In this document: positions 11,161 through 62,621 of the stretch, in pieces
Position numbering within the stretch: the first letter of the stretch is position 1
Layout of the letters: every line of letters starts with the position of its first letter
Assembly (NCBI RefSeq): GCF_964204645.1
Contig: NC_134031.1
Coordinates: forward strand, 7,175,001-7,239,000
Reading direction: 5' to 3'
DNA: 64,000 nt
Source: Tubulanus polymorphus
Taxonomy: Eukaryota > Nemertea > Palaeonemertea > Tubulaniformes > Tubulanidae
The notes under the pieces: generated by a model
The model's database searches: none
Seen by the model: the letters and a program-made list of their open reading frames with translations, nothing else
What the model was told of the DNA's origin: nothing
Translations under genes and position numbers: made by a program

Positions 11161-20949
<9,789 letters not shown>

Positions 20950-21919: not shown

Positions 21920-24900
21920 CTGGTGAAATAAATCAAGGAAAATGATCAGCGACGAACGCACGCAGCCTGAACCCACCCCCTCAGACATTCAGTCACCGTT
22001 CTTGCAATATTCCTACATTCTAATGCCTATTTCATCTGTGCTTGAGAGGACGCCAGGCGGCTTGGCTCAGTCAGTTATAGATCTCAATAGGACTAGAACA
22101 GATGAGCAGTTGAACTGAAACATTGATTTTAATCCATTTTACGCTGTACGCTTCAATACAGCACAAATGGATAACAAATCAATGTTTTAGTTCAGCTGCC
22201 CATTTGTGTGGGTCCTTTATTAGATACGTTTGTACTACAAAACATTGACTGAGCTGACCACCTCTCAAGAGAAGTTGAAATAGATACCGCATTGGCATCT
22301 AGACTTCACACATGTTCTGGATTTCACCTCAAATATTTTTGATTGAAATTCAACTTACACCCAAGCAACGAACACCTGGCATTTTATCAACAGAAAGAGA
22401 TCTTCAAGATTTTAAGCTCAATAAATTCAAAATATCCACAGAAGAATAGTGACTTTTCGGCTTAATCCAATGAGCTATTATCAAAACTGATTATTATGGA
22501 TACCAGCATTAGTTTATTTCTGAAGGAGCTGTACAATTGATACTTGCATCGGCTGAAGGTAATTTTGGTTGTGGGAGATTGAGAGCTTTCGCCATTTCTA
22601 CTAGAAATGTCCATTTTACCTAGACTAGGTAAAATGGACAATGATAACCATAGTATCGCCATCTATACAGTGAATTTCAATGAAACGATATTTTCAGACC
22701 GTGGAAATTTTGTGGTCTTTAGAGATATCCGAAATTCGATGGTGTATAATTCATATACCGGTACTAATGATCAGAGAATTATTTCAACAATAAACACCCA
22801 AGTTAAACTATTATCTCCCAGTTTATCAGATCCGACTTGGGTGGAGTCTACTGTATCACACATACAATACAATATACATAAGGCAGTGGCTGCCATTAAT
22901 GATACTGATGATGATGTGAAAATAATCCGTAAGAACAAAATGAGTCCGAAATGTTTCCTTGAGCTAGTATTCATTTAACATTGCGACTACATATATCCTA
23001 ATAGTCATGTTCAGGGATTGAATTAGTGAATAAGTGGATTTCTGTACAGTCATTCTGAAGATGACCAACGAAATATAGGCCTACCTATGGTCGAATAGAA
23101 TGTTAAGCTAATATCTATCATAGTAGCTCACAGAAACATTGCAGACTCTCTCATTCTTAGTGTGAATATCATATTATCTTAACACCAATAAATATAAGCA
23201 GCGATCACACGCAGACGATTTGGCGCGGGCTAAATTGCAACGGATCATGCTCGCGCCAAATTTGACCTGTGCCTAATTAGAGAGCGCGCTCAACCATAAA
23301 CCACTCACTCGATACTAAACAATGCTCAAACAAAGTGAAGTGGGTCATTTCCGGAACCAGTTGCAGTTCAAACTCGATCATTTTTCCCATGCTAAACCAG
23401 GCTTGGGCCCATTTGGCACGCGTGCGAACAGTTGTTCTGGACCAAACTTAGCCCGGGCCAGAAACGCTTGTGTGATGGCGGCTATAGTGAATGCTGTTGT
23501 GGTCAGTCAGTAGTGACTGGTAGGTAGACTGATCTCAGTCCTTCAGAGTTAATGAGCAAAGCCCGCAGTTGATGATATAACAGTTTATTCTGAGTTTGAC
23601 TAAACTTCCATCAAAAGAGAAATGAAAATTTTCATTTTCGTGTCTCTAATGAAGTTTAGTCAAAACTTCAAAACTGTCAGAATAAACCGTTATATCGACA
23701 GCGGGTTTTGTTCGGTAGTTTATAGTTTCTAGGTGCACCTCTCTCGTAGTGCTACTCCATAAGTTCATGCAATTTTAATAGCCCGACTAACCTGAAAATA
23801 CGATTCCCAAGCCGAGGACAATGATTGTATATATTTCTCCCTCTCGAGCTCACTATTGAAGTATAGCACCCATTTAGCCGATGACACAGTGTTTTCTTGC
23901 GATTCAAATTCCTAGAGTTACGTAAATGATCAAAATTCAAAAAGGTATACAAGAAACAGAAATCAACGAAAAGACACTCGAGCAAAGGATCATCGATGGT
24001 AAAACTGACCAGTATACAATACGATTTAGCACCATTATCCACATAGACCGACGTTATATCGGTAATATTAGCACTTCCTAACGTCCGGAAGAAATTCGTC
24101 TGGACGTCCTCTTGACACATGATTAGTTTCGCGTTGGTTAGAACACCACAGCACGGTAAACACGCTTGGCAGTTTTGCTGGGAACCCTGCAAAGTGGGAA
24201 ACAACAATTGAAATACAGTATACCTGCTACTCCGCTGCCTTAATTAGGGCCCAGTTCCACAGTTGCCGGTAAAATTTGACCCTTAAGCCCAAGATGCAGG
24301 GAAACACGACAAACGGGAGTGTTTTCCTGCGTCGTGTGCGTTTATGAGAAAGAAGGTTCCGGGAAACCCTCTGTGATGTGTAGCCAGTCAACAATGACCG
24401 AACAATCAGATGACTATATGACATGGCGCATACCACGGAAGAAACGTGATATCAGAAAGCCGGTTGTAATCAAATGATCAATGGACCAATGCCTTTTTAT
24501 GATGGAATGTAAAGAATAATGCGGTTGAAGCGCAAAAGGCATATTTGATAGAGGACCAATATAATAAAATATAAATATAATAACAAATGACAAATATAAT
24601 ATAGAAATAATAAATTATTTCATTGTTCAACGCCCCCTGGTGGCCATATGCAAAAACCAATGACCTTGAAACTCACCACGATCATAGATCATGTCATGAG
24701 GTACAACTTTCCAATTGATTGTGGTTACAAAATTTGCTTAAGTATCAATATAATGAGAAAAAACTTTTTTCCACCTACGAATGAGTACTGATGACACCAA
24801 GATGGCCACCAATTGCGTCATTATTGCCTGATCAAATATACCTGTCTCGTGTATAAGAGATCCCTTTCCAAAGAATACCCATCACAAATTGCAATGAAAA

Positions 24901-27900
24901 ATGGCAATCTATTAGGAAGCTACAGGACTCAGAATTCAGGCCAAAATTGACATTTTTGGGCACAAAAAAGGTCACAGGACAGCCATCTTTAGTCCAATCG
25001 ACCCAATTTTTCTCATGCTGATGGGCCCTTGGGGGATACAAATATATACGCACGATAAAGGTAGTTGATAAAAGCGTCTTCAAAATTTCCCTCGAAAACT
25101 TCAAAAATGTGTCAAAAGTGCTGATTTTGGCGAACAACAATGGCTGCCAGTCGGCCATCTTGAATCTGAGAGGGCCAATTTTTGGGCTGAAGATGTGTCT
25201 AGGGTAGATACATGTGTAACCCAAATATCAAGACATTACATTGAAGCTTCTTCAAAACTTCCCAAAATAACTGGATTCCATCTATGGATGGACGTACTGA
25301 CACACGACGGACAAAAAGTGAACGCAATAGCCCGCTGGGACTAAAGTCCCAAGTGGGCTAATGAAGTCTTGAGTATAGTAGTGAGTTGATTTGATTAATA
25401 CTTGTATCTGGAGTTTTGAGTGCATTTATAATTAAAGGTGGCTGAGGTTAGATAAGTTAATTTCCGATGTTTTAACTTTTTGAGTCAAATCTTCACCGAG
25501 AACTGAGAAACTGGATCTGTTGTTTTGGGACCAAAAATACTTCAATAATTAGGAAAATTGAAAGATCCACGTATCATCATACATTTATTCCGTCCGCTAC
25601 CGCTTGGCACAGCGCCATCAACCAGCTCTGCAATTCGCCATCGTTCGGCGCAGATAATTGTAATGTCGCCGTACCATTGGTTAATATCACATCGAAACAA
25701 TACTGACGATCATTGTTCGGGTTTCTTCGGCAACCGCTACATTCTTCGCTACTGTAAAATATACGATAAATCGAAATCAAATTTTTCGTGAATTTTCGCA
25801 AAAAATTCTACGATTACTTTTTATGAACATGAAAACAGGTATCGCTTAGGTGAACTTGATTTTACTAGAAATACCATCCTCCCCAGCAGGGATTCGAACT
25901 TGATGGCATCAAGACTTGCCACGGTACTAAACACAAAACCCTGCCATACTAGCCCAAGTAAGCGGCTACAATATGAGCAGCAGCTTAGCTGTCATTAGCA
26001 GATATCCCATTTTATTTCAGCCGGGTATTTATTCATTCATAATCTATCTGTGAAATTTACCTCAGCGACTTTACAACAAGCAATCTGATTCATGCTGCAA
26101 CTTTCGTGCGGCAAACCTGCGCATGCACTCATATTTCTAACAAAATCAAGTTAACCTACAAGTACTACCTTCACGTTTTACTGATTTGACACCAAGTTAA
26201 CACACCTCCTCCACAACTCAATATTATCTATGCATTCAACCGTAATGAAATTTCTCTATTTCGGTTATGAATTTCATTATAAATCATAGATCATAGATCG
26301 TTACCTCAATGGAAGACATAATTTCGGCACCGACAATCGACTATCCTGTTGATCGTCGTATTGATAGAGAACTCCGTCCCTGAAATCACGAAACACAACG
26401 AAATATCAATAAGATTTTGATGTAAATTAATTCACAACAAACAACAGGGAAAGGGACGAGATGCTGTGAAAATTAACTTAAGCGCTTAAGTGTTTCATCG
26501 TTAATGTATATAAACAATTTAATTCATTCATCCTAAATGTACTTGAATAATTAGCTTTTTATAAAAAGCTTGTAAGTAATTAGCTTTGAATTCACTTAAA
26601 ATTTAATAACCCTTAATGTGTTTACTAAATCTGTATATTATTCATTTGATTCACACGTGTTTCACCTGATGAGGTATATAATCTCGAAAAATAGTCGTGT
26701 CAATAAATTGCGTTCAAACTCGTAGGAAAATTAGATTCATATTGTCATCGATTTAATGGATTTTCGATCAACGAAATTGCATTAGGCTAATATTAGTTGA
26801 TATAAAAGTTAAATCCACTGTCACAAAAACAAATTTTTTTCTTTTTCCCTACATTTGGGACAGATTAATCATTCCCATCTTGAAGGAATCTATTTGTTTG
26901 AAATGCAGTCAAACCCGTTATTTCAGATGAGTTTATTCTAGAAATTTAAGGAAATTTATTTACGGTACAGCTTCCTATTGAAACGCATCGCACCCGTGAA
27001 TGAATACCGATGCAAAAATGTACAGTTCGCATTTTAATCGCGTTTAATTTCTTTCCAAAATGCCATTCAATTTTCAGTTTAAATGCAGACGCAACGGAAA
27101 ATAAATATTAGTTATTTCTAAGCTGTACCGTAATTCCAATGTTATGTACACTATGACTGTGATGTTGGAAACCATGCACTCATTGACTGACGAATCGGAT
27201 TCCAAGTTTGAACACTTTTCCTCAATTTTATTAATTTACACCACACTTAAACACTGAAACTAAACAATAGCAAATATCTTACACTTATATCTTGATTTTC
27301 TCATTTCCATTTAATAGCAAAAATGTACATTACTTACGGCTCACAAGCCTTTTTCCTAACCAGTTTGACAAACAGGGACACCATGCTCACTTGGGAAGTG
27401 TTTTTAAATGCACAACAATCTAACAATTTCAATATTCAACGCCCCCTGGTAACCATATACAAAAACCAATGACCTTGAAACTCATCACAATCATAGAACA
27501 TGTTATAAGCTACAACTTTCTAATTCATTGTGGTATCAAAATATGCTTAGGTATCAATATAATGTCGAAAAACTTTTTCCCACCTATGAATGAGTACTGA
27601 TAACACCAAGATGGCTGCAAATTGCGTCATAATTGGCTGATAAAAAATACCTGTCTCAGGTATAAAACATCCCTTTCCAAAGAATACCCATCAGCAATTG
27701 CAATGAGAAATGGCAAACCAGTAGGAAGCTACAGGACTCAGAATTCAGGCCAAAATTGACATTTTTGGGCACTAAAAAGGTCATAGGACGGCCATCTCGA
27801 GTCCCATCGACCCAAATTTTGTTATACTTATGGGTCCTAGGGGGATTCAAATATATACGAAAGATCAAGGTAATTGATCAAAGCGTCTTCAAAATTTCCC

Positions 27901-36900: not shown

Positions 36901-39900
36901 GGAATCAATGAGTCATAGGGACCCTGTATACAGATAAAGTGTTGATATCATACTCACATATTCCAGTTCAAATCGTACAAATTCCAGTCCCGAAGTCATT
37001 GTCATTAATATCTGTAACCGCTGCAAAGTAGAAATAAAATCTTCTTTCAGTAAACATACGAAATCGTGGCAAATCCAGAGTATACAGGATCATGATTTAA
37101 TCCCAATGATTTTATGAATCATCGAGTAAGACGCAAATCGAACTTCATACAAACCTGATCGTCCAATAACAACGATTCCTTCACGTAATATTTGCGAACG
37201 ACTTTCGAATTCTCCGTAATGCATTTCATGTAGCATTCGAGTAAATTTTCATTCAATGCCATGTACAGCCAAGCCCGACCTGGAAATATTCATCGATTTA
37301 CCAAAAGCTGCCCCAAAGTATGTCGACTCAAAACTACTGAACGAAACGGTGTAAGCAACAAGATAAGACCTTTCAACGATCTTGGAGTAACTATTTGACT
37401 ATTCCAAGCGATGATTTACATACAAAAGTTGTACTTAAATTTTGACTTTGTAATTATCTAATTCCCGAATCATACACTCAGTAAACCAACATTGAAAGCG
37501 TCAATCATTATACAAGGATATTGGAGTTGGTCATTGATACTGGGTTTATCCATTCACTATCAAATGCGAAAAGCCACTGTGCCAACACTAGGTGAAACTA
37601 GCCTCTGCTAGAATGTTCTACTTTTAAATCTTCAGTAAAACCCGCTTAATTCGGATTGGTTTAACCCAGATATTGATCAAATCTGAATATCATTTCTATC
37701 TATCTATACATAAACATATAAACATCATGTAATCCAATTTCTCATAATTCAGATGGATTTCATCTAAGCAACTGATCCAAATTACTGACATGCAAGGTCT
37801 ACTCTATAGATAGGCCTCACAGATGAATTCTCAATACAAGAATCAAGCCCATGTTCTGAAAACATACGTGACCGGACCCTAGACAACAAAATTAGCGAGC
37901 TACGCAACCAGAGCAGTACCAGCAATCAGTACGAACCTTTCCCAAGATCGGTTGTCACTTTAGTCAAGCGATCGATTTCTTTTACGGCTTCTTTTCGCGT
38001 GAAATATTTCGCCAATTGCCAGTATCCATTGGTGATGTGTCGTAATCTGTGAATACCGAGTGAAACATATTTGAGGATAATACCGGTATTTCATATCAAA
38101 TAAATGAATCTACATCATTGACCCCTTCAGTGCGTAAATTGGTGATGGACTTTTACTAGTACACGGCATCGCGGTGTATTGATGTTGAATTAGTAATTAG
38201 TTTTTATCTCTATCGAAAGATGGTAGCACCTGCCAAACATAGTGAAATATTAGCAAATAATCATACACCGCGCCATGGTGTAGACACAAACACATTGGGG
38301 TGGAATTTTTTTAGATTTTCAAATTATCTCCAGCCCTTTCGGGTATTAATTGGTCGGCACTACAATCGGTTAGGCCAAACTCAAACGGTTTACTGTAGGC
38401 CTATGTATTTTTGTGATTTTTGGCATGTTGACAGAAATCTATGCATGAACTGGTACAACAGATAGATTTCGTTTGTTCAAACAATTATGTGGCCCCAATA
38501 AACCCCGAAAATAGATTTCAGGCATCTACAGCAATAGGTACTTTAAACATCACAGCAAATGAATGTGTACCGTCACAGTGGCTCAGTTGGTACAGCACGT
38601 GAATAACACACGTAGTAGCTGCGCAGACTTGTTGGGAATATATTTTTCTCATTTGTCTAGATATTAGTAGCTTCCTATAGTTCAGCTATCTGTGGTCTCC
38701 GCGCACACACAGGAGCATCTTGAACAGGGGACACAAAAACACATAGCCTAATATAATTGCCCCTACTAAACTGACAGGCATCAAAATTGATAAGTTTGAA
38801 GTAATAGGTTAAAAATCACCCATATGAACATGATCGTTCATTTGTCACTGTCACATAAAAGTTTAAGATATTTTTAGGCCTATATAGGGGTCTTTGATGT
38901 ATTTATACAATTACAAGCAATCCTACATCTAACCCAGCTTCGTTTGGACAGTTGCAACAGGGTAAACAAGATAATATAACTAGAGTACGGCGCTGTTTGA
39001 TATCAGGATATCAAAGCAACCCCTTGAGGTAAATCTTCAATCTGGGTGACAAGGAAAACCATGGTAATAAGTGACAAGTTTCAAAATGTTCCTAATGATA
39101 ATTTGAAGTGTGAATAATTCATAATTTTTCACTTAATACAGAGAAGTGACTTCCACTTACCCGTGTAACAACGCATGGTCAAGATGTTCGCAGAGTTTCT
39201 TTAAAAGTCGATCTTCGTTGTGAAGCGTTACGGTGTCGAATCCATTACAGAACTGGTATTCTTGTAACTAAAAAATAGTAATCACACAAATATTATACCG
39301 TTTGTACATTCTAGATTTTTGCTCTTACATTTCTGTAGGCCTAAGGTAAAGCTGTGCGGCTACAGGCCCTTAGCCTATGCACACAGGCAAGGGTTCTCAC
39401 TATGGCCAGTCTCGATGCCAGCGGGTTCTATTCCTTGCCTCATAAGGAAAATAAATGGATGACTACAGCCGCGATCACACAAGCGTTTTTGATCCGGAGC
39501 AACTGTTCACACAGGTGTCAAATTTGGCCTGTGTCAGTTTGGCCCGACCAAACATGATGGACCAGGCCCGACCCAAATTTCAGCACAGGCCAAATTATTG
39601 TGTGCGAATTGCAACTAGTTCCAGTGAGTCAATTCACTTAGTTAAAGCATTGTTTAGTATCAAGTGACTGTTTAGCGCGTGAATGTGCCTCCCCAATTAG
39701 GCACAGGCAGAATTCGACTCGAGCATAATACGGACCAAATCGTCTCCAGATCACGGCTTAGGAGTCAAATTGCCATTGATAAGTGGTTAAGTACAGAAGC
39801 CCCTTGGTGACATACGAGCTAGCTTTTTCACAATTTCGATTTAACATCGAAATTGGACATAATAACTTAAAATTTGACATAAGTCGAAATTTGGATATAA

Positions 39901-40471: not shown

Positions 40472-41819
40472 CGTTGCTAGTATCACGTTGTTCTCGTCAT
40501 TGTCTTCTTCCTGAGGAGATTTCATTACACATTTTTGACAGTTTTTCTCTCAGACAGCGAAACAAGCGACTTCCACCATTTTGACGTTGACGTCTGCAAA
40601 GTGGCGCCGCGTCTATGAACGCGTGTGTGAGCGGAACTAATATGCAGCCGTGGTTTCGAATCCTGTATGATTCAAAAATATTCTTTAGATGCCATATCAT
40701 TCCTTTGGGCGACGAAAATCGAAATTTAACGAGTTTAATGCATCCGAGATACAACAAAAATCCCTAACGTTATCGTTTATATGATACGTTAGTTCATTTG
40801 TTGCCAATCATTTTTAGGGTAACCTTGATTTATGATATTATCACCATGGAAACTGCATTTTGCGCTTTTTCATCGACACGCCAAAAAAGTTGATTTTGGT
40901 CTCCCAAAAGTAGAAATCGAATCTTGGCAAAGAAAACATTCCTTATAAATAACCTTAAACATGTGAGATCAGTGTATCCGATAGAAGGATGAAAAAATAC
41001 GATTTCAGTAAATGCATTTAATGTGTATTGTTTTCTATCATTGCACCGCACAAATTTTTATGTCCCAGGTAAGACTTGATTGAATACGGTACTCTACAAT
41101 CAGAATCCAATTTTCAAAATACAGTACTACAATTTTGAGTGGGTTATGAAATGATTTAAGCCATATTATACATGATTTGTCGTTTTTCGTGATTATTTTA
41201 CCATATAATTTATGGTAAAAGTTCAGATTCATTGATGCCCGAACGTTGAACTGTTGTTGATTTTACCTCTTTCGCGCCACTCGTCAAAAATATACTTATG
41301 GATCCATTAGGCACCAGACATCACCTTGAAAAGGCTAAATTGAAAAAAAATGTACCGGTGAACCAAAAGTTTTGAATTCTCGCGCGAGAAAACAAAACTT
41401 TTTCAATTCTCGCGCGAGAAAATCAAAAGTTTTGAATTCTCGCGCGAAAAAACCAAACTTTTTGAATTCTCGCGCGAGAAAACCAAAAAACGGGCCAATG
41501 TGAAAAATTTGTTATCGTTGCTTTAGCCGTACAGAAAATTTTTTAGCATGGCCCGAATCAGCCACCATACAAAATTGCCTTTTTGCAACCCAAAATAAGT
41601 CGTCCCAATCGATCCCAAAAGCAGAAAAGGGCACGTATTTTTTAAGATGAGGCCAGATAAAAAAGACACATTCAGTGCATGGTATACATGCACGAATGGA
41701 TTTTCGAAGGCTACGTCCCTGAGCAATCTGGGTTGACGTCGCATTCTATTTTCCAATTAACTTTCACAATTGATAAAATATCTTGGCCTGCGCAGTCATA
41801 TGACAAAAACGATTTCCCC
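40472..41819. promoter_or_regulatory. Divergent intergenic interval
   Basis: Separates PLEKHM2 (leftward) from the repeat-protein gene (rightward). Apart from the 30-bp array I see no gene. It probably holds both promoters, by position only. Confidence 0.4.
41361..41480 (+). repeat. 30-bp x 4 array with CTCGCGCGAG palindromes
   Basis: Four exact-period units, each with TTTTGAATTCTCGCGCGAG (one is TCTCGCGCGAAA). It lies between the divergent starts of PLEKHM2 and the repeat-protein gene. The core resembles CGCG-type promoter motifs (TCTCGCGAGA, bound by BANP in vertebrates; E2F TTTCGCGC), but with an extra CG. Confidence 0.85.
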
Positions 41820-42105
41820 TGAAATTTCCGGGAAACTTGGTTCGGACACTCGCTGTCTCGTCACAGTGCGTTAGGACTTCTCTTAATAAAGGGCTGGTCT
41901 TGGCGTGCCCTTTCTATCAACTTATGACCGGTACTTTAAGCGGTCATTTTTTCATTTTCTTTGCTTCGTATCTGTTGCGTCTCGTGAAAACAATTTTCAG
42001 TCCAGTGGAATCGCAGTGTGGAAAGTTGACAGGAAGGGTAGCCTATTTAATCGAAAAGTAATAAACAACCAACATTCATTTTGTCATCGGTACCGTGAAG
42101 TCTAG
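41820..42105 (+). other. Candidate 5' UTR exon of the repeat-protein gene
   Basis: A GTGAGT donor at 42106 pairs with the TTCTAG acceptor at 42255 to give a 150-bp intron just before the ATG. The left edge is not defined; I see no clear TATA box. Confidence 0.4.
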
Positions 42106-42260
42106 GTGAGTGGCAATTTTTTATCTATCTAATTGAAAACTCGATTTTTTCTTTATGAAGTCTGTATACGTATATACATGAAAAATGTAGCAATCCATTG
42201 GCTATGCAAATTGTTGCAAAATATTTTCTTTTCTTTTTTGGCGATGTGATTCTAGGGAAA

Positions 42261-42300
42261 ATGTCTTCTTTTCATCACCAGTCCTCTTCTTCCCACAGCT
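42261..42300 (+). CDS. Repeat-protein gene, coding exon 1
   Basis: Start codon and MSSFHHQSSSSHS, ending one base into a codon at a GTAAGT donor. Preceded by an AG acceptor at 42254-42255. Confidence 0.68.
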
Positions 42301-44914
42301 GTAAGTAAAAACTGTTTTTAATCAAGATTTCTAAAACGCCATTAAGGATCTCATGATTGCAAAGATAACAGCGGAATCATCAGTTATTCATAAAACTAAC
42401 ATGATCGATGGTTTTAAAGATAAACTATAGCCACTTATTCAAAAAAAGCCTAACCATAGGCATTAGGCTTATAACAAGTAAAAACATTCTACGATATTTC
42501 GCGAGCACCGATACAAAATTGGTGTCGATCTAGAACTTAATTCTTAGTGATAAATGTAATATATAGATTTGTATAATTCATTACAGCATGCAGTTCGTTC
42601 TCCTCGAGTGGTGGCACAGGCGAAATTAAGGCAAGTTTTTTTTCACTATGGATGATAGTCGGTTTTTATAGCCTGATAGTTTCGAAAATGCCTTTTAAAA
42701 GCTAGGGGTCGGGGTAGTTATTTTGATGGATCCGCGTGTGACTAGATATTTTCGTTTGAACGCTGCTTTTAGAACTGGGACCGCCCCGTGTCGAAAAATT
42801 CGGGGCAAGATTTTTCGGAATCTGGATACAATTTTCAGGGGTTTTTTTTAAATGAAAAGTAATCCATTCTCCAATGATTTATTGAGGTACTCAAATTCTT
42901 TTTTTTGGGGGGGGGGGCATTGATTTTCAATATGAAAGCTATACCCCTTTTCGCGGTGAAAAAGTGCCCTTTTTCTTGAAATAAAACGGGCCCTATGGGA
43001 TTTGTCTCAGACTGTCATGTTAGTCCATGGACGACTCTAAAATGATATAATTCATTTTTTAGAGTCCATATTTAGCACATGTATATAAACTTTTATTTCC
43101 GGAACAGGCTTGTTTGTCTGGTATTCGGACTTCAAACCATCGACTGTCTTGGGTGCGTGCCTGGCGAGTGCACTCGGGCCCGATTAGAATGGATTTGCGG
43201 TTCTGTGAGGTTCACTGATTCCTGTGAACTCTGCGGAATTATTCTGGAGAGGTCTTTGACCGGCGAAAGACTAGAACTCAGCGTCATTATGGTGGCTGAT
43301 CGGGCCACAACTCAAATTAATTTCAAAAACTTGTTTTTAGCACGTATGTTGATCTGAATTTAAATTCATTTCCGTGAGTTTGAAAACGAGGGATTTTTAA
43401 ACTACTTTAAATCAATTTGAGACTCCGGGAATTCAGCAGCCACCCATGATTTAGATTATTGTATCTGAACCTATGATGGTCCGACTAAAGAATGATTCGA
43501 AAAGGTGTTATTTTCCAGCATCCGCTGAAAACGACTTGTTTTGATAACAGTTATATACTAAAATCAACTATGGGTACTTTTGTTAGGTCCTGAAAACATT
43601 TTGATTGTTTTCAGCAGGTGCTTTTTCGAAACCTTTGACCTGAGTTAAATATTCGTGTCTTAAAATAATTAGCTGCGGTTTCTGTTATATAAAGACACGA
43701 GGACCGCAAAGCGGGGGTGGGGGCATTAGGGGCTTATAATTCTTCGCTGCTTTAAAAATTCAAATAAAGTCCTTCTCCGGCCGCACACAAAATTTAAATT
43801 CGATGTGCGGACTCCTTATCACCAGAAAAAAACTGCACTTTCAGCGCTCGTGACTTTTAGAGCCCCCAAGTATATAGGCTTTGGGATCGGTAGTTAGCGC
43901 CCAACCCCGCCCCATCTTGAGGCCGTTTCGCAGCCCCTTGAGAAAAGCAGGCGCAGTAAATCCCTATCAAACTAACTATATATAGCTATATATACTTTTT
44001 TTCTGTTGCAGTTTGGTCAAAGTATCTCGGGGACTGGTCCAGCACTTTATAGGACCGCTGACGGTGTGGAGCACCAAGAAGGCGGGGCTAGGGTGACCAG
44101 TTTTTCCGCTACGGGACCGGCACTTTATAGGACCGCTGACGGTGTGGAGCACCAAGAAGGCGGGGCTAGGGTGACCAGTTATTCCGCTACAGGACCGGCA
44201 CTCTATAGGACCGCTGGCGGAGCGAAACACCAAGAAGGCGGGGCTAGGGTGACCAGTTATTCCGCTACAGGACCGGCACTCTATAGGACCGCTGACGGAG
44301 TGGAACACCAAGAAGGCGGGGCTAGGGTGACCAGTTTTTCCGCTACTGGACCAACACTTTATAGGACCGCTGACGGTGTGGAGCACCAAGAAGGCGGGGC
44401 TAGGGTGACCAGTTTTTCCGCTACGGGACCGGCACTTTATAGGACCGCTGACGGTATGGAGCACCAAGAAGGCGGGGCTAGGGTGACCAGTTTTTCCGCT
44501 ACAGGACCGGCACTCTATAGGACCGCTGACGGAGTGGAACACCAAGAAGGCGGGGCTAGGGTGACCAGTTTTTCCGCTACTGGACCAACACTTTATAGGA
44601 CCGCTGACGGTGTGGAGCACCAAGAAGGCGGGGCTAGGGTGACCAGTTTTTCCGCTACGGGACCGGCACTTTATAGGACCGCTGACGGTATGGAGCACCA
44701 AGAAGGCGGGGCTAGGGTGACCAGTTTTTCCGCTACGGGACCAGCACTTTATAGGACAGCTGACGGTGTGGAGCACCAAGAAGGCGGGGCTAGGATGACC
44801 AGTTATTCGGCTACGGGACCAGCACTTTATAGGACAGCTGACGGAGTGGAGCACCAAGAAGGCGGGTCGAGAATAACTGGTTTTTCTGGTACAGGACCCG
44901 GACTCAGGAACTAG
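42261..44914 (+). CDS. Unrecognised gene for an 11 x 26-residue repeat protein
   Basis: I do not recognise this protein. Three coding exons (42261-42300, 42587-42630, 44012-44914) join in phase to 987 nt, 328 aa. The ATG follows an in-frame TAG two codons upstream. The N-terminus (1-28) is Ser/Gly-rich without a signal peptide. Residues about 35-320 are eleven units of 26 residues, ATGPALYRTADGVEHQEGG plus ARVTSFS, ending in GTGPGLRN. No Cys in the repeats, no membrane segment; likely soluble or fibrous. Units differ mainly at third codon positions, which argues for coding. It faces away from PLEKHM2 and towards BTBD8. A noncoding minisatellite is the alternative; a Ser-rich lead and clean splice signals make a gene more likely. 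Confidence 0.7.
42587..42630 (+). CDS. Repeat-protein gene, coding exon 2 with GC donor
   Basis: A 44-nt exon, SCSSFSSSGGTGEIK, after acceptor ATTACAG. The donor reads AAG-GCAAGT, the classic consensus of a GC-AG intron. Confidence 0.62.
42631..44011 (+). other. Intron 2 of the repeat-protein gene
   Basis: 1,381 bp starting GC and ending AG. Contains a run of 12 G at about 42907-42918 and nothing coding that I can support. Confidence 0.5.
44012..44914 (+). CDS. Repeat-protein gene, exon 3 (repeat array)
   Basis: Follows a strong acceptor (polypyrimidine then TTGCAG). FGQSIS leads into eleven units with no indels; TAG stop at 44912-44914. The opposite strand is also open, but that is a by-product of a 78-bp period. 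Confidence 0.75.
   Translation, partial: FGQSISGTGPALYRTADGVEHQEGGARVTSFSATGPALYRTADGVEHQEGGARVTSYSATGPALYRTAGGAKHQEGGARVTSYSATGPALYRTADGVEHQEGGARVTSFSATGPTLYRTADGVEHQEGGARVTSFSATGPALYRTADGMEHQEGGARVTSFSATGPALYRTADGVEHQEGGARVTSFSATGPTLYRTADGVEHQEGGARVTSFSATGPALYRTADGMEHQEGGARVTSFSATGPALYRTADGVEHQEGGARMTSYSATGPALYRTADGVEHQEGGSRITGFSGTGPGLRN
44030..44890 (+). repeat. 78-bp tandem array, 11 units
   Basis: Units of 78 bp without indels. Units 4-6 and 7-9 share the same order of variants (V, T, M types), showing a three-unit block duplication. Known to be inside the open frame of the repeat-protein gene. Confidence 0.92.
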
Positions 44915-45249
44915 TGACCATTTTCAGCGAATGAAACGTACAAGACCTGCTACATGCTACTAGACCCAAATTAGAAATTCTAATCTATATATAGCTTTTC
45001 AATGATTGAAATTTTGTGGTGGTATTAGTCTGTAGATACATATAAACTACATATGTGTACACACATATGTGTCATGTGAACCAGCAATCATGATTTTCTT
45101 GCTTATGATATGGTCAAGCCCTGACGAGCATCCCCATCGTAACTCAGATTGACTGAGCCCGCCAGACTCGGTCGATCAGCCGTGAACTAAGTCCTCTTAA
45201 AAGTAGTCTTTAAGTTGTTAGATCGGCTTCAGTATCTAAATAGCTCGGA

Positions 45250-45401
45250 CAGTGGCGGATCCAGGGGGGTTCCAAGGGTTCTGCAATACCGTGCCCCTTG
45301 GAGTTGCCCCTAAATCCATGGATTAGTAGTGGAATAATAGTGGAATAATAGTGAGTGCCCTTGGAACCCCCTCCTGATAGGGCCCTGGATCCGCCCCTGC
45401 T
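45250..45401. mobile_element. Foldback, GGCGGATCCAGG type
   Basis: CAGTGGCGGATCCAGG and, inverted, CCTGGATCCGCCCCTG, followed inward by GGGGTTCCAAGGG pairs. Confidence 0.75.
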
Positions 45402-46590
45402 GGAAACCGGTCTTAAATCTAAGCCATGACCCCAGAGGTTCCAAAAATCAGAATCATCTCAGCTTATTACAAACTCAATCACAAAATCGTATTCAGTCAT
45501 TCATTCCAAATAATTTTATTGATACATAAACGATAGAGTGGACTTTGATTTTATATCTTCCAAATCGATAATATAACAATCGAAATTGAACAACATATTT
45601 CTTCAATACAAGCGAATACATTTTTGTAAGTGTAAATTCATCAGAAAAAGTGGAGAGCAAACTTGATAATATACAAAAATTATAAATAACCATCCAACAC
45701 ATGATAAATTCAAATATCAAAGGACAAGGTCGATTAGCAGTTGATCAGCACATAATTGAACAGTAGAACAATAGAAACGATACAATTGTAGAATTCGTAA
45801 TATTTAACTTATTCCTGTATGAACTATTCATCTAATCATTTAGAAAAATTTATGAAATTCAACAGCGAATAAATATTTTTTCAAATAATGCATTTTTACA
45901 TATCACTCATTGGGTTACGAGTATATGAGAATTGAGCCGTTTCGACAACGATTCGAGTAACTTCAGCAGATATCCCACAAAAATCAACGTACAGTAGACT
46001 CAGTCTATGGGGGTACCGGCCGCTACGGTAATCCGCTCAAATCAGCGGGTTTCTATCCCTACCGTGTCAATGTGAAATAATCTGAAAATCTATACCGGTA
46101 TTTGTCTATACGGGTAACATTTAACGCTACTGATATAGCGGTGGCGTTGGAACTGTAGCGACTTTTACTGAATAACGTTTTTTTTTTCATTGAATATCAC
46201 GTTTTTTACGAAATTGAAGTAAATTCGCTGCAGCAACATCAGAACCTTTCAAAAATCGGCAATTGGCCACGGCAATCAAAAATTGCTTCCAATGCGCCTA
46301 TATAGGCGGAGTCTACTGTATATCATTATGGTGCAGGTATCAATCCATGGGTCACACACCCTTGGACATCGATCATATGCTAAGTCAGGATGCGACTGCT
46401 TTTTGTGATAAACAGTGTTCTTGTTTTTCTATAGTCTATGGAGATGGAGTGCACCGGTAATGAATTTCAAACTGAATACGTCGGAGGGCAGGAACTGAAT
46501 ATAGGAAATACCTGGGTCAATCGTTAAAGGGCAGTTTTAAGTTAACAAGTCGATAACTGGCTTAGTGCATTGTAACTATGGTATTCATCT

Positions 46591-49035: not shown

Positions 49036-52000
49036 CTACAAAATACCAGCAAAAGCAATTTCAATTGTGTAGGCCACATGAACATTCTAATCGGAATACA
49101 AGCCATAGGCCCTACTGGGATGACATAATTAAGATGGTACCACAATCTTAGTTAGTAGCATAGGGGAGATTCCCGAAGGCCTTCATTTTAGGATAATGAG
49201 CCTCACTAATTCAGGTCGCAAAAACTTCTATGTTCTGTTAAGTTTGTCGCCCATATGCAGTTTTCTCTACCCGAGATGGTAGACAGACTTCCGAGCACCC
49301 CGGATGAAGATGGTTTGCGCATATCCCAGCATGCCTCAGATTTGGTGGGAATGAAATGTATTTTCTTCTAGGCACAGTCAAAGCAACAATGGGTCATCAC
49401 ATGGATTAGGAAAATTTCAAGCATTTTGTCCAAGGCAGAGATTAATCTGAGGCAATTGGCTCCATGCTGAGCCTAATGTAATTCACTTTACAGTGGAAGC
49501 ACATTATAACTAATTGGGACGGACTTATTCTATTGGGTTGGAAGCAATTTTTGATTGCTGCGGCCAAATGCCGATTTTGGACAGGTTCTAAATATTGCTG
49601 CGGTTAATTTACTTAATTTCTTCAAAAACGTGGTATAGAAAGACAAAAAAAAAACGTCATTCAGTAAATTATTGCCGCGGCTTACGCAGCTGCAGTCGCT
49701 GCACTTCCAACGCCACTGGACAGAGCAAATCAAAGATTTCATTTCACAGAAATCGATATTGAAATACAATTTTAGATCTTAAAATAAAACCCGGAAGTAA
49801 AACGGTAGACGATACCGCGGGTTCACACGTGAACACCTGCTGATATCTGCGGCTAAGCCAATCACAGAGGAGTCTTTGCTTTCTGATTGGCTTTTTAAAA
49901 CAGATATTTTTGCGTTCAGATTTTTGCAAAAAAGCTCGTATAAATTTTAACAAGGCCCTTTTTCAAAATTCAGCTTCATAGGGGTTGGAGAATGGATAAT
50001 GCTCTAATGAATGATTTGTATGAATATATGCTCAGTTGCACAGTCAAAGAGCCTTAGCTCTGGGAACCATGTCATTGCACAACTCTCAACATATGACACC
50101 ATGAAATATCGATAACTTACCGATGAGTTCAAATTCAAACTTTTTTGCGTCGAAAGTTTAGGTTTCACAGACATCCTTTTTTCAATTGTGCTGACAGCTC
50201 TCTTCAACGGAGCACTCTGAAATACCGAACATCATTCATATTGATGAACTAATGGACCACACGGCTGCATAGGTTAGATTTATCAGAAATCGTAGCTCAT
50301 TTAAAATACACTAATAAAAGTAATATAAATTTCTAAACTTTTACTGAATTTACCCGGTTCTGACTTGATAATTTTGGTGCTGGTCTTAACTGTTTATTCT
50401 CCTCAATCTGGACGAAGGATGCCTCTATAAAATTTGAAAAAAAAAAATTTTCCATAATATCTCTTGTACAGCAGTAATCTCATATTGTAATGTGAATTTT
50501 TTTCAGAAAGAAACAAAGACTGAAATAATCAATTTTTACAGGTACTCGTGGATTTACACAGTGGACCCTCATTAGAGTGAAATTCCCGGGACCAGGAAAT
50601 ATGTTCGTTATAACCGATAGTTTGTTATATCCAGTATGAAATTAATCAAATTGTCTTACTCCGGACAAAATTCGAAACTTTTTATATCTGATGAATCGTT
50701 GTATCCGAGTTCGTTGTAACGAGGTTCCTATTTGGTTTCTATTTAGCCTCATACAACACTACTAGTACTTACCATCTTTGATTTTATCTTGCAACTTTTT
50801 AGGAATCTGGTCCCACTCCGGTAACAGCAGTAACTGCGATAAATTGTGGGTGATGAACAATTGACAAAGTTCTTCGATGCGTTTCGTTAGTTTTCTCGAG
50901 TCCTGAAATACAACACAAAGTGAATGACCGATTCAATTCAATTACTTAGGAAAATATGGTGACAACGGTTCTCGGGCTGAGGCTCAAACGCGAACTCCGA
51001 AATCATCATGCGTTAGTTCCCATTGCATTATGGATATGTTGTATCTAGGGTCAATAGCTAAATATTTTCAAGACAAATTTTTGAATTTCAACCCGGTTCC
51101 TCAGTTATGAGGTCATCTTCAAGGTCATGTCGGTTAGTTTTTAGTGCCTAGTTCTGCTGCTAGGTGGCGCACTTGGTCCACTCTTTGCACTGCATCACTA
51201 GACCTCCTTATTAACATAACACCCAAGTTTCATCAACCGACTCCTAATGAAGCTAAGTATAGCTGAAAGACAGCCACACATATAGGCAAACAGTACAAGA
51301 ATAAGGGTTTCACGGAAGCCCGAGAAACAATATCATTCCCTGGTCTTACGTCAATGGTTAGGTTTACGATCATTCCGATGGGTTTGGGATTATTGGTGAT
51401 ACATCAAAAACAGAAAATAATTACTACAACATCACAAGAAAAGTAGTCCAAAGACTTGACAGTTTAGCCATAGAACACTTTTCAATCCCTCATACTTACC
51501 AAGCTCCAATCACAGATTCCACTATGAGCAAACGATTTCAACTTTCGCGCCGACATGTAAGACTGACAAGCCACTGATACCGGCTGCGAATGAATCACTT
51601 TGTTCATCCAAAATTCCAATAAATCCAAATTCTCCGAAGCTTCCTGCAAATCAAGATGACGATGAAAGAAACTTCAAGGAAATACGAGATATGCTTTTTT
51701 ACAGTGGATATTACGTCGGATAAAAAACTGAATAAACTAGGAGTCCAGGGACACCATGCCCACTTGGGAAGTGGTTTCAAATGCTCAACAATCTAACAAT
51801 TTCAATATTCAACGCCCTCTGGTGACCATATACAAAAACCAATGACCTTGAAACTCAATACAATCATAAAACATGTCAGCAGCTACGATTTTGTAATTGA
51901 TTGTGATAACAAAAAATGCCTCGTTACTAATTTAATATGGAAATACTAAGTTAATCTACTATTCAACGCCCCCTGGTGACCATATTAAAACCCCCAATAA

Positions 52001-55000
52001 CCTTGTAACTCACCATATTCATAGAACATGTCATGAACTACAACTTTGCAATTGATCATGGTAACAAAATATGCCTAGGTACCAATATAATAAGGAAATA
52101 CCAGGTTATTCTACTATTCAACGCCCCCTGGTGACCATACAGAATAACTAATTTCCTTAAAACTCACCACAATCATAGATGATGTCATGAGCTACAACTT
52201 TGCAATTGATTGTGGTAACAAAATATGTATTGGTACAAATATAATATAGAAATACTAAGATATTGTATTATTCAACGCCCCCTGGTGGCCATATACAAAA
52301 AACAATGAACTTGAAACTCACCCCAATCATAGAACACGTTATACGCTACAACTTTCTAATTCATTGTTGTAACAAAATATGCTTAACAATATAATGTCGA
52401 AAAACTTTTTCCCACCTACGAATGAGAACTAATGACACCAAGATGGCCGCCAATTGCGTCATAATTGGCGGATCAAAAATACCTATCTCAGGTATAAAAC
52501 ATCCCTTTACAAAGAATACCCATCACAAATTGCAATGAGAAATGGCAAACCAGTAGGAAGCTACAGGACCTAGAATTCTGGCCAAAATTGACATTTTTGG
52601 GCACTAAAAAGGTCATAGGACGGCCATCTTGAGTCAGATGGACCCAATTTTTCTTATGCTGATGGGCCCTTGGTAGATTCAAATATATTCGAAAGATCAA
52701 GGTAATTGATCATATCGCATTCAAAATTTCCCTCGTAAACTTAAAAAATGTGTAAAAAGTGCTGATTTTGGCGAACAACAATGGCTGCCAGTCGGCCATC
52801 TTGATTCTGATAGGGCCAGTTTTTGGGCTGAAGATGTGTCTAGGGTAGATACATGTATAAACCAAATATCAAGACATTACCTTGAAGCGTCTTCAAAACC
52901 TCCCAAAATAACTGGATTCTGTCTACGGACGGACGACGGACGAAAAGTGAACGCAATAGCCCGCTGGGACTAAAGTCCCAAGTGGGCTAAAAATGTACTG
53001 ATTTCATTTAAAGATTTCCCGAACATGCATTTCGGTACAGTCTTTTGGAAAACAACAACAAGATATCTCAAACATTTCGAACAGTTTTTTTTAAATGTGT
53101 TCCACAGTTCATGTCTGATTTTTTACTCCCGAGTTCTAACATTGGAATAAGAGTCGAACTTAACCAAGAACTGTTAAACTGGGTCATGCGGAATCTCGAT
53201 TTCAATCTATCCTGGTAAATCAAACAAAAATATTATCAACAGTTAGCTCTTTACATTAACGATCTTAAATCCAGATTGCTCAATAAAAAACATATATCTC
53301 AGATCTAGGAAATTTTTTTTTGTACCAGGTAGAGTAAACCTTGCCTAACTCTGACAGACTGGGACTGATTAAGTCAGAAAGAAATTAATATTTTTCCAAG
53401 TTACTGGTAGTCACAAGTCCCAAGTTGGCCGTGTCCTCTGTATTAGGTGACGTTTTTCTGAAGTAAAAGCAGTGACCAACATACTAAATATTCTTTTAGA
53501 AACGTCTGCGACTGGAGAACGGCGGAGAAATTCTGCTGTATGAAGGCGATACATTTTGTAGTGATGACAGTCAATAGATCAACTACAGTATCGGCCCATT
53601 TAACTAACGGTAGAATCGATTTCACTCTGTCACAACCGCAAAGTACGGATAACACCGTATCAACAGTCTGAAATATTAATAACATCAAATTGTCAATTTC
53701 AAAACATTTCTATCGAGGCCGTTTTTTGAGTACGCATGTGCCATCCGGGAATCTGCCAAAAAAATCATACGGAAAACGTTACTCTGTCTGTCCAGTTTTT
53801 ATCATGAATATTCAACAAAATTTTTCTTCATATTTCCGTCTTAATTTTCAATTTCTAATGATTTGAAAAAAGTAAGTTTTCTTTGTCTTTCCCATCATTT
53901 CAATTCAATTCAACATGAATTTCACTTGTTATTTATTTTTTGGCACAGGCCTTCTCAAGATTTTATGTGGCAAATACTGGAATAATAAAAAAAAGAAGTT
54001 TTTTCATTTGATGGATAAAAAGCAAAAAATCCTTCAAGAGCATTGTCCGTTTAGAAGGGGTTTCTAAGGAATGAAGGAGTTGTAGGGACCATGCTAATGG
54101 TTTATTCGTGTCTTCGTGATACTCACCAGATCTTCGACGAGTTTCTGACAGCAGCTCTTCAGTAAATCGGGAGGCATCGCGGCGAATTGTTTCGTCGGCC
54201 AAACCTTCGTGAAATGTTTCGTAACCCAAACTAAAGCTCGATCCAACACGTCGGTTAAACTGTAAAACGACGCCAGACTCATAGCTTCGATTACTCCGGC
54301 TATACACTCGTTACAAGGCTGCAAAACAATGAAGAAATCCACATCAAACACGGCGTAAATAACGGGACCACAAAAATCTCGATCATCATGACAGTATGGG
54401 GTACCAGCACTCAATAGATGGCGCTGGGGGATTCATAGTGAAAATCAGTTCATTTTCAATGAAATTTGAACTGGATATTTAGGGCCAAAAATTATCAAAC
54501 AAGTCAATGAATAGATATAAGATTCACTTTGTCAAGGAAATTGAAGCGTGAAAAGCGCCACTAGTGAACCTGGCAGAATCCTCGCTTGCCACAGTAGCAT
54601 TGCCAATACCCCATTTATGATGATAATATTTGAATTTTCAATGATGTGGATTATGGGAACTGGATTCATGTACAGCAGACCCCACTTGTCACGGAGGCAA
54701 ATGCATTGGAATATAACAAGCCCTTTTCAAAATCTTTCTACTGAAAATCCACGCAATATGAACAAGAGCAATTTGCACGTCAAACACTATCTAAAATGTT
54801 GATTCAAGGGCGACAATTGAGAAACCAGAATCATGGCATCCAGTAAAATTACAATCCTTCTCCGATTATTATTCTATAACAATTAGCTCTGGACAACTAC
54901 GAACCTTATGAAAGAAATGGCATTTTTTCTTGAGTAATATATATCCGGCTAAATCTTTAAGCCCTTCTATTCCGTACATGTCGGCAACTTGTATAATTTC

Positions 55001-60395: not shown

Positions 60396-60615
60396 CTCCA
60401 GCATTACGTCATAATGCTCGGGATTCCATGAGAAGAGATCACTTCCGGAGTCACTGAGGTCCAACTTCCTTGTGGGTGACGGACGTATTTTGAGAGTGCT
60501 CTCATCAAAATTTTTTTTTTTCGTTCGTTATCGGTGGTCATCTACTGTTGTAAGGTGAAACATTTTATATGTTTATATTTATTTACTTTTTCTTTACCTA
60601 CTGTTGTAAGGTATT

Positions 60616-61224
60616 TTGAATTTGAATGTTTATGCCATGGCGGCTTATAATAAATTAGATTTACTGGACATTGGGTCTGAAATTACGGTCGCCAATGAGG
60701 ATGAGTCAGTTTGTTCGGCTGGTCTTGTGGCTGACGAAATGTCAGTTCAACAGGCTATTGATGAAGGACGGAGTCAGTCTTTTCTCCTTCTGTCCGATTG
60801 TTATGGGTCTTCGATTAAGAAGAACTCTCAGTCTGTAGCCGTAGGCCATAGTGTTGATAAAAAAGATAAGGACAAAGCCGTTAGACCGAAAGCAATTCCA
60901 AAAATTTCTCGTCGAATTGTTAGGTCAAAGAGCTCAGGTTCAGCTCAACCAGAGACTTTATCTGAAAGTCATGTCGATCCTGTCATGACAGAGTTTTTAG
61001 AGATGAAGAAAAGACTTGAGGCTTTAGAGTCTCAATATTTGCAAAGTGATAATGATCGGTTCGATCTTGGTCAGCAGGATCAATGTGATTTTGGTGATGA
61101 GCTTAATGCGTCTGACCAATTTGCGGCTATTTTTAACCAGGGTTTAGACCGTAATAATAATAACGTCCAGTTACATGAGGACAATGATTTTATGACCTGT
61201 ATTAGGTCAGAGATGGGGGTCTAA
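60616..61224 (+). pseudogene. DIRS gag, N-terminal part
   Basis: About 200 codons, acidic, with an EFLEMKKRLEALESQYLQ coiled-coil stretch. It breaks at a GGGGG run near 61213; the frame continues in another phase. Confidence 0.65.
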
Positions 61225-61225
61225 A

Positions 61226-61895
61226 AAATGTCAGACCCCCAATTAAAAATCAACAGTTAGCGCAAGCTGTTGATAAACTGATGACGGGGTTTAGTGGTGA
61301 AAATTCAGATATTAAAAAGGATTTATTTGAAAAATTAGAGAAATCCGTTAGGCAGTATGCTTGTCCTGAGAATATTCCTAGTTTGGCCGTAACTAAAGTG
61401 AATCAGCCAATTTGGTCGAAGTTAAATAAAGATTCGGCTGCTTTTGATTTAAAATGTCAAAAAATTCAGAATTATAACCTTAGAGGTATAACTGCAGTCA
61501 CACAAGCTATGGATCTTTTATCGGGTCCGGACCCTTTGGACAAAAAGACGTTAGGTATGACGTTGTATCACTCTTTGAGTCTTTTTGCGCAAAGCAATTA
61601 TGAGATGAATTTGAGACGTCGGGAACTATTGAAGCGTGGGTTCAACGACGTTTATAAGCCAATCTGGCTCCCCTCAAATCCGATTGGGAAAGAACTTTTC
61701 GGGGATCAACTTGATGACAAGTTACGAGACATAGAAAGGTCAAGTCGTATGGTTACGAAGATGGTAGATCGAGGTCGTGGGAACTATCGATCTAGAGGTT
61801 ATGGGAACAGGAGATTCCAGCCATATAGAAGGCCTGCTTGTTCTAATTTCCCAAAACAGGATTTTTGGAAAAGAGGTCAACATCAGAGGAAATAG
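61226..61895 (+). pseudogene. DIRS gag, C-terminal part
   Basis: Has LAQAVDKLMTGFSGEN and VNQPIWSKLNKDSAAFDLK, the typical DIRS gag core, and an RG-rich basic tail RGRGNYRSRGYGNRRFQPYR. Separated from the first part by one frameshift. Confidence 0.7.
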
Positions 61896-62621
61896 TAAGT
61901 TCCCAATTATCTTCTGTTGCTGGCCGAATTAAACATTTTTTCTCTTTCTGGGAGACTTTAACTTCTGACAAATCAATTTTGAATTTGGTTTTGGGTTATA
62001 ACATTGAATGGAATTCGGTGCCTCCTGATCAAATTTTTCCACCGCGTTCTATTAGATTTAATGAAGTTGAAACTTCTGCTATTGACTCACTATTATCAGA
62101 TTTTTTGAGTCGTGGAATTATTGAACTGGCTTTTCGTCGTTCCGAAAAAAGATGGATCATTCAGACTTATTTTGAATTTGACTTGTTTAAACAAGCATGT
62201 CAAGTATTATCATTTTAAAATGAACTCTTTGAAATCAGTTCTTAGTCTTATGACTCCTGGTTGTTTCATGGCCTCTCTAGATTTGAAAGATGCCTATTAT
62301 TCTGCTTGTAGTGATCGGAAATATCTTCGATTTATTTGGAAGGGTCAACTTTTTCAGTATACCTGTCTTCCGAATGGAATTTCATCGGCTCCAAGAATTT
62401 TCACCAAGCTTCTGAAACCTGTTTTTACTCCTCTCCGAGAATTGGGGTATATTTCTGTAGATTATATTGATGATATTTATCTGCAAGGAGATGACGAGCC
62501 TTGTTGCGATGATAATGTAGGCCTTACAGAAAAACAATTGGTTAATTGTGGTTATGTTATACATTCGGTTAAATCGGAAAAGAAACCTAGTACTCAATTT
62601 GTAAGCAGTTCATTTCTATAG
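61865..62621 (+). pseudogene. DIRS reverse transcriptase, frameshifted and truncated
   Basis: AGRIKHFFSFWETLTSD, then a frameshift near 62130 in a T run, then FVVPKKDGSFRLILNL, MASLDLKDAYYS, YTCLPNGISSAPRIFTKLL and the catalytic YIDD. Overlaps gag by 31 nt. The open frame ends inside the right 63-bp repeat, before the usual FLGF motif. Confidence 0.8.

Follow-up and report, generated by a model that had tools for sequence, protein, structure and literature searches.

Orphan repeat proteins are common, and the difficulty that near-perfect repeats pose for structure prediction has been documented elsewhere. Human mucin 22, for example, likewise combines near-identical units with a confident but questionable AlphaFold2 beta-solenoid, and in the same report 32 of the 78 models made for random perfect repeats came out as beta-solenoids (PMC11795689, section 3.2.1). 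The locus that we describe here lies in a 64,000-nucleotide stretch of the genome of the nemertean Tubulanus polymorphus (the window; NC_134031.1, positions 7,175,001 to 7,239,000), and it very probably holds a real orphan repeat-protein gene, perhaps for an intracellular product, evolving in concert. No sequence kinship to mucin 22 was seen: the unit here, 26 residues long, has a charged residue or His at six positions, in a repeat protein lacking a hydrophobic signal or membrane segment.

Two further likenesses concern short motifs. The units of Tau comprise 31-32 residues, and KHQPGGGRL of the Tau/MAP microtubule-binding repeat may be compared with EHQEGGARV of the present unit; this was the first of three lines in a profile search of PDB sequences, and it stands at chance level, the whole-sequence E being 1.4 and the i-Evalue of every stretch at least 340, so that membership of the Tau/MAP repeats was rejected. 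The SHIPPO or sperm-tail PG-rich repeats (PF07004) presumably share GP-x-x-Y followed, after a Ser some 17 residues on, by an aromatic residue. The PF07004 model was absent from the matches listed at E <=10 for the array, for the head plus two units and for a single unit, in searches where the HMMER filters drop most matches above E ~0.1 even with listing to E 10.

Organisation of the predicted repeat gene

The first-pass annotation had proposed three exons joining in phase with a clean stop, an in-frame stop ahead of the ATG and a 150-bp candidate intron in the 5' UTR. Rebuilding the exon model by script, after a reading of 41001-46500, reproduced the coordinates, the phases and the terminal TAG, giving 328 residues with no frame break, placed the leader intron (Table 1), and found an in-frame TGA 15 nt upstream of the ATG once that intron is removed. 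In the frame of the third coding exon the first in-frame Met occurs at 44456, inside unit 6, so that this exon must be spliced on if the whole array codes; its G+C content is 58%, against 39% in the window.

Splice sites were ranked over 4000 positions (41500-45499) on an approximate, generic metazoan position matrix, and on that matrix the best donor and the best acceptor of the surrounding 4 kb are both used by the model, whose lowest-ranked site is the acceptor of the leader intron. The second CDS intron begins with a GC donor (AAG/gcaagt, 5.9 bits), so the model requires a GC-AG intron here; just two phase-compatible GT donors precede the next in-frame stop, scoring 0.5 and -4.7 bits. Transcription may start near 42078, as judged from the TATA-like and Inr-like motifs upstream of the leader exon, which are assigned by likeness to generic consensus forms. 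On the plus strand AATAAA is absent from 44915-45500, where the only variants found among those sought are AATGAA (44930) and TATAAA (45041).

Table 1. Features of the predicted repeat gene (window coordinates)
Feature	Position	Strand	Basis or remark
Candidate core promoter: TATA-like TATTTAATC (42044-42052), Inr-like TCATTTT (42076-42082)	42044-42082	+	read from sequence
Putative non-coding exon 1 (5' UTR), 5' end guessed	42078-42105	+	donor TAG/gtgagt at 42105, rank 1/4000
Candidate 150-bp 5' UTR intron, gtgagt...ttctag	42106-42255	+	acceptor ending with 42255 (scored at 42256), rank 21/4000
Coding exon, MSSFHHQSSSSHS, ATG with A at -3	42261-42300	+	script-rebuilt model; donor (42300) rank 5/4000
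Coding exon, remainder of Ser-rich head (..SCSSFSSSGGTGEIK)	42587-42630	+	acceptor (42587) rank 7/4000, GC donor (42630) rank 6/4000
Coding exon: N cap, eleven 26-residue units, C cap, TAG	44012-44914	+	acceptor (44012) rank 1/4000
Eleven units, consensus TGPALYRTADGVEHQEGGARVTSFSA, 78 nt each	44033-44890	+	script; units 4-6 = units 7-9 in DNA
C cap TGPGLRN + stop, partial twelfth unit	44891-44914	+	script

The predicted product (33.6 kDa, pI 6.05, 12.5% Ala, no Trp) consists, in order, of a Ser-rich head of 28 residues, a short N cap, the eleven units and the C cap. Six codons, of both the TCN and the AGY type, encode the 13 Ser residues of the head, whose Ser richness is thus not that of a simple repeat in the DNA. 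The unit count behind this head was recovered as the first reading had it, with a constant 78-nt step and every unit exactly 26 aa long; the GTGP-type caps claimed for both ends were likewise found, with SISGTGP preceding unit 1 and FSGTGPGL succeeding unit 11. TRF describes the array as 10.6 copies with 94% matches and 0% indels, and the base-for-base identity of units 4, 5 and 6 to units 7, 8 and 9 reads as a recent duplication.

Searches for copies and relatives

Within the organism's own genome (267.8 Mb, 77 contigs) a protein search at E <=0.001 gave 6 matches, another form of protein search at E <=10 gave 7, and 10 came from a DNA search at E <=1; all of these matches lie inside the array. 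A dispersed satellite or a transposon-derived array would have further genomic copies; among the candidates scored, by DNA as well as protein, only the array locus appeared, the search scoring its best candidates and skipping very common words. The sole match of the head was the head itself (E 0.11).

The earlier statement that the unit belongs to no known family agrees with the wider searches: nothing exceeded the thresholds in Pfam-A, NCBIfam, PDB sequences, prokaryote and viral contigs or phages, and plasmids gave three weak lines. As predicted from its sequence, the product would be an orphan in the sense of having no relative in these collections. In Pfam neither a single unit nor the head plus two units had a match. 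For the array itself Pfam gave lines below the cut-off (Alg14, 22.3 bits against a cut-off of 27; Bclt, 19.8/25; DUF7586, 18.1/27; SNN_cytoplasm, 7.2/25). These were set aside as repeat-summed noise, since five lines of this kind were obtained with the antisense frame as well (best zf-H2C2_2, 26.9/40 bits), and four sub-cutoff NCBIfam lines (best PssD, 33.3/110 bits) were dismissed as noise of the same origin. A single-sequence search of PDB sequences gave no match, and all three lines of the profile search were at chance level. The plasmid lines (tblastn, 3 of 72,556 records, 24.6-31.5% identity, E 2e-3 to 0.3) fall in two Azospirillum records annotated 'calcium-binding protein' and one Eleftheria hypothetical protein, and were rejected as compositional matches of repeat to repeat. 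Pattern searches gave 91 hits in prokaryote contigs and 4 in viral contigs, of which none was confirmed; a DNA search of phages yielded no relative, and Rfam, run over the whole window at gathering thresholds, no match. In the open-licence literature neither one 12-residue and six shorter peptides of the unit nor a report of a 26-residue lophotrochozoan tandem repeat was found, and the titles and abstract openings returned by broader queries held nothing on the unit.

Predicted fold and physical character

AlphaFold2 renders the sense product as a confident beta-solenoid, the best model having a mean pLDDT of 88.2 with 143 residues at 90 or above. The open antisense frame, used as a decoy, is also modelled as solenoid-like, with less confidence (mean pLDDT 71.4, 0 residues at 90 or above). 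Among the five models of the sense product, two score 68.3 and 67.5, no better than those of the decoy, and the fold matches for the decoy model are as good as those for the sense model; a kinship to parallel beta-helix proteins, such as the EtpA secretion domain (8cpk) and an Antarctic bacterial antifreeze beta-helix (3p4g), was dropped after this control. Given the solenoid-like antisense model and the published bias of AlphaFold2 (PMC11795689), the fold prediction is non-discriminating and the beta-solenoid is unproven; on the models, a true beta-solenoid fold seems to us a possibility with the balance somewhat against it.

The strongest competitor is a coding gene whose repeats, instead of folding into a solenoid, are intrinsically disordered and act as a multivalent binding tail or as a linker of low complexity, and we give it a little less than an even chance. 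Besides the decoy, the two weaker sense models and the solenoids predicted for random perfect repeats, it is favoured by low hydropathy (GRAVY -0.57) and by a composition that includes 16% Gly and 11% each of Ser and Thr; moreover, the spacing of V21 and F24 suggests that they would lie on opposite faces of the predicted strand. Against disorder, the best sense model is clearly above the decoy in both pLDDT measures, the charge-hydropathy value exceeds the boundary narrowly, in the direction of folding (0.437 vs 0.421), and the hydrophobic positions of the unit vary conservatively, with V, M or I at 21 and F or Y at 24.

Whichever state the tail adopts, no hydrophobic signal or membrane stretch was detected, the highest 19-residue Kyte-Doolittle mean being 0.08. 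A secreted repeat protein of the shell matrix, byssus or silk-like type would carry an N-terminal signal, and none was found in residues 1-40 (maximum 10-residue Kyte-Doolittle mean 0.13). Since the protein has no hydrophobic segment, we infer an intracellular place for it.

Evidence for coding

An open frame across the array is by itself weak evidence of coding, because any one frame of a 26-codon unit with such a composition has a probability of ~0.34 of being open and because an antisense frame sharing the codon boundaries of the sense frame is open as well, over 315 residues. Both facts suit a non-coding 78-bp intergenic minisatellite, open by chance in one sense and one antisense frame, as does the presence of an exact three-unit duplication in a tandem array. 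What separates this reading from a coding one is the distribution of substitutions. Relative to a consensus built from units 1-10, 24 distinct single-base variants occur among the eleven units, and, with p-values serving as guides because the variants are few and share their history through homogenisation, 14 are synonymous in the sense frame (6.9 expected, p ~0.0025) as against 5 in the open antisense frame (7.2 expected, p 0.90). The sense-frame excess is seen both in units 1-10 alone (9 of 16, 4.7 expected, p 0.017) and in unit 11 alone (8 of 12, 3.3 expected, p 0.004). All four remaining reading registers have stops in the array; one of them, on the minus strand, is also rich in synonymous variants (14/24, p 0.009) and is interrupted by 14 stops. 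Third codon positions account for 12 of the 22 variable columns (binomial p 0.033), or 8 of 15 when unit 11 is left aside (p 0.088).

The caps are, as we read the sequence, the most telling coding feature, with protein motifs retained while third positions drift. Over the 21 nt that span the start of unit 1, S-I-S-G-T-G-P stands in place of the consensus S-F-S-A-T-G-P, with 4 synonymous and 2 non-synonymous codon changes, and third positions hold 6 of the 8 N-cap differences (binomial p 0.020). At the 3' end of the array EGGSRITGFSGTGPGLR stands against EGGARVTSFSATGPALY, with 6 synonymous and 6 non-synonymous codon changes, and in this C-cap stretch, which overlaps unit 11, 9 of 16 differences are at third positions. 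Both caps keep S-x-S-G-T-G-P across their synonymous changes.

A synonymous excess confined, between the two open frames, to the sense one, a divergence lying mostly at third positions in both caps, and the fall of the top donor and top acceptor of 4 kb exactly where the gene model needs them make the minisatellite improbable. The first-pass claim of a real spliced protein-coding gene is borne out to the extent of a prediction from sequence, strengthened by the synonymous excess, the divergence of the caps, the splice-site ranks and the single locus, and we consider a real coding gene very likely.

Genomic neighbourhood

Both flanking genes appear to lie on the minus strand. A RUN-domain match, among the 10 listed for the genome, occurs at 37155-37283 (E 4.3e-9). 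The window has 34 long ORFs, and a Pfam scan covering ten of them gave two matches, a BACK domain at 54097-54432 (21.7 bits, cut-off 20.9) and a reverse transcriptase. RUN and BACK fit, at domain level, the PLEKHM2 and BTBD8 previously named as neighbours, the gene names themselves being provisional. The PLEKHM2-like gene presumably starts near 40.4-40.5 kb, as placed by eye from a presumed N terminus. The repeat gene would be head-to-head with the PLEKHM2-like gene and tail-to-tail with the BTBD8-like gene. That the array is an exon of either neighbour, or an antisense product, is very improbable, since the open antisense frame and the minus-strand domain matches that might suggest it are met by the antisense synonymous count, below expectation, and by the position of the repeat gene, apparently outside both neighbour spans.

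Several other elements were observed in the window. A minus-strand AATAAA (45515-45520; TTTATT at 45515) may terminate the BTBD8-like transcript, in which case the BTBD8-like and repeat genes would converge within ~600 bp. Upstream of the repeat gene, 41361-41488 comprises about four 30-bp units with the palindrome TTCTCGCGCGAGAA, which, apart from one additional CG, we take to resemble the TCTCGCGAGA element that occurs in bidirectional promoters. Overlapping open frames at 60610-62621 (plus strand), one with RVT_1 (E 5.4e-11), probably represent a retroelement; a 154-bp unit repeated 3.7 times at 51806-52382, by eye like translations at about 24600-24791 and 27424-27600, is probably a dispersed repeat; and 16645-16768 is a perfect run of 62 TA dinucleotides.

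Evolution of the array and possible role

The reading that we prefer, and hold to be moderately probable, is that a real gene, spliced and present in a single copy, encodes a multivalent repeat protein that has 328 residues and resides inside the cell. Concerted evolution of its array is the part of which we are most confident. Unequal exchange or slippage would expand, contract and homogenise the array by whole units of 78 nt, which would preserve the frame and leave divergence mainly in the last unit and the caps. In the product the Ser/His-rich head may serve as a flexible tether, and the near-neutral tail, free of a hydrophobic signal or membrane segment, could form a rod or a multivalent scaffold presenting one surface about eleven times, so that length or avidity would be set by copy number. 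An intracellular structural or scaffold role stands, on present indications, at about even chances. A bolder proposal, that this is a lineage-restricted gene for a novel rod inside the cell, a beta-solenoid with coils of 26 residues and a sequence family of its own, its length changing by in-frame gain and loss of whole units under concerted evolution, and hence an undescribed natural molecular ruler or scaffold, appears unlikely.

An array with a built-in antisense decoy offers a clean test of how far AlphaFold2 beta-solenoids can be believed for near-perfect repeats. If transcribed, the locus would represent a compact orphan repeat gene, in which the array grows by whole codons while the caps are held under constraint at the level of the protein.
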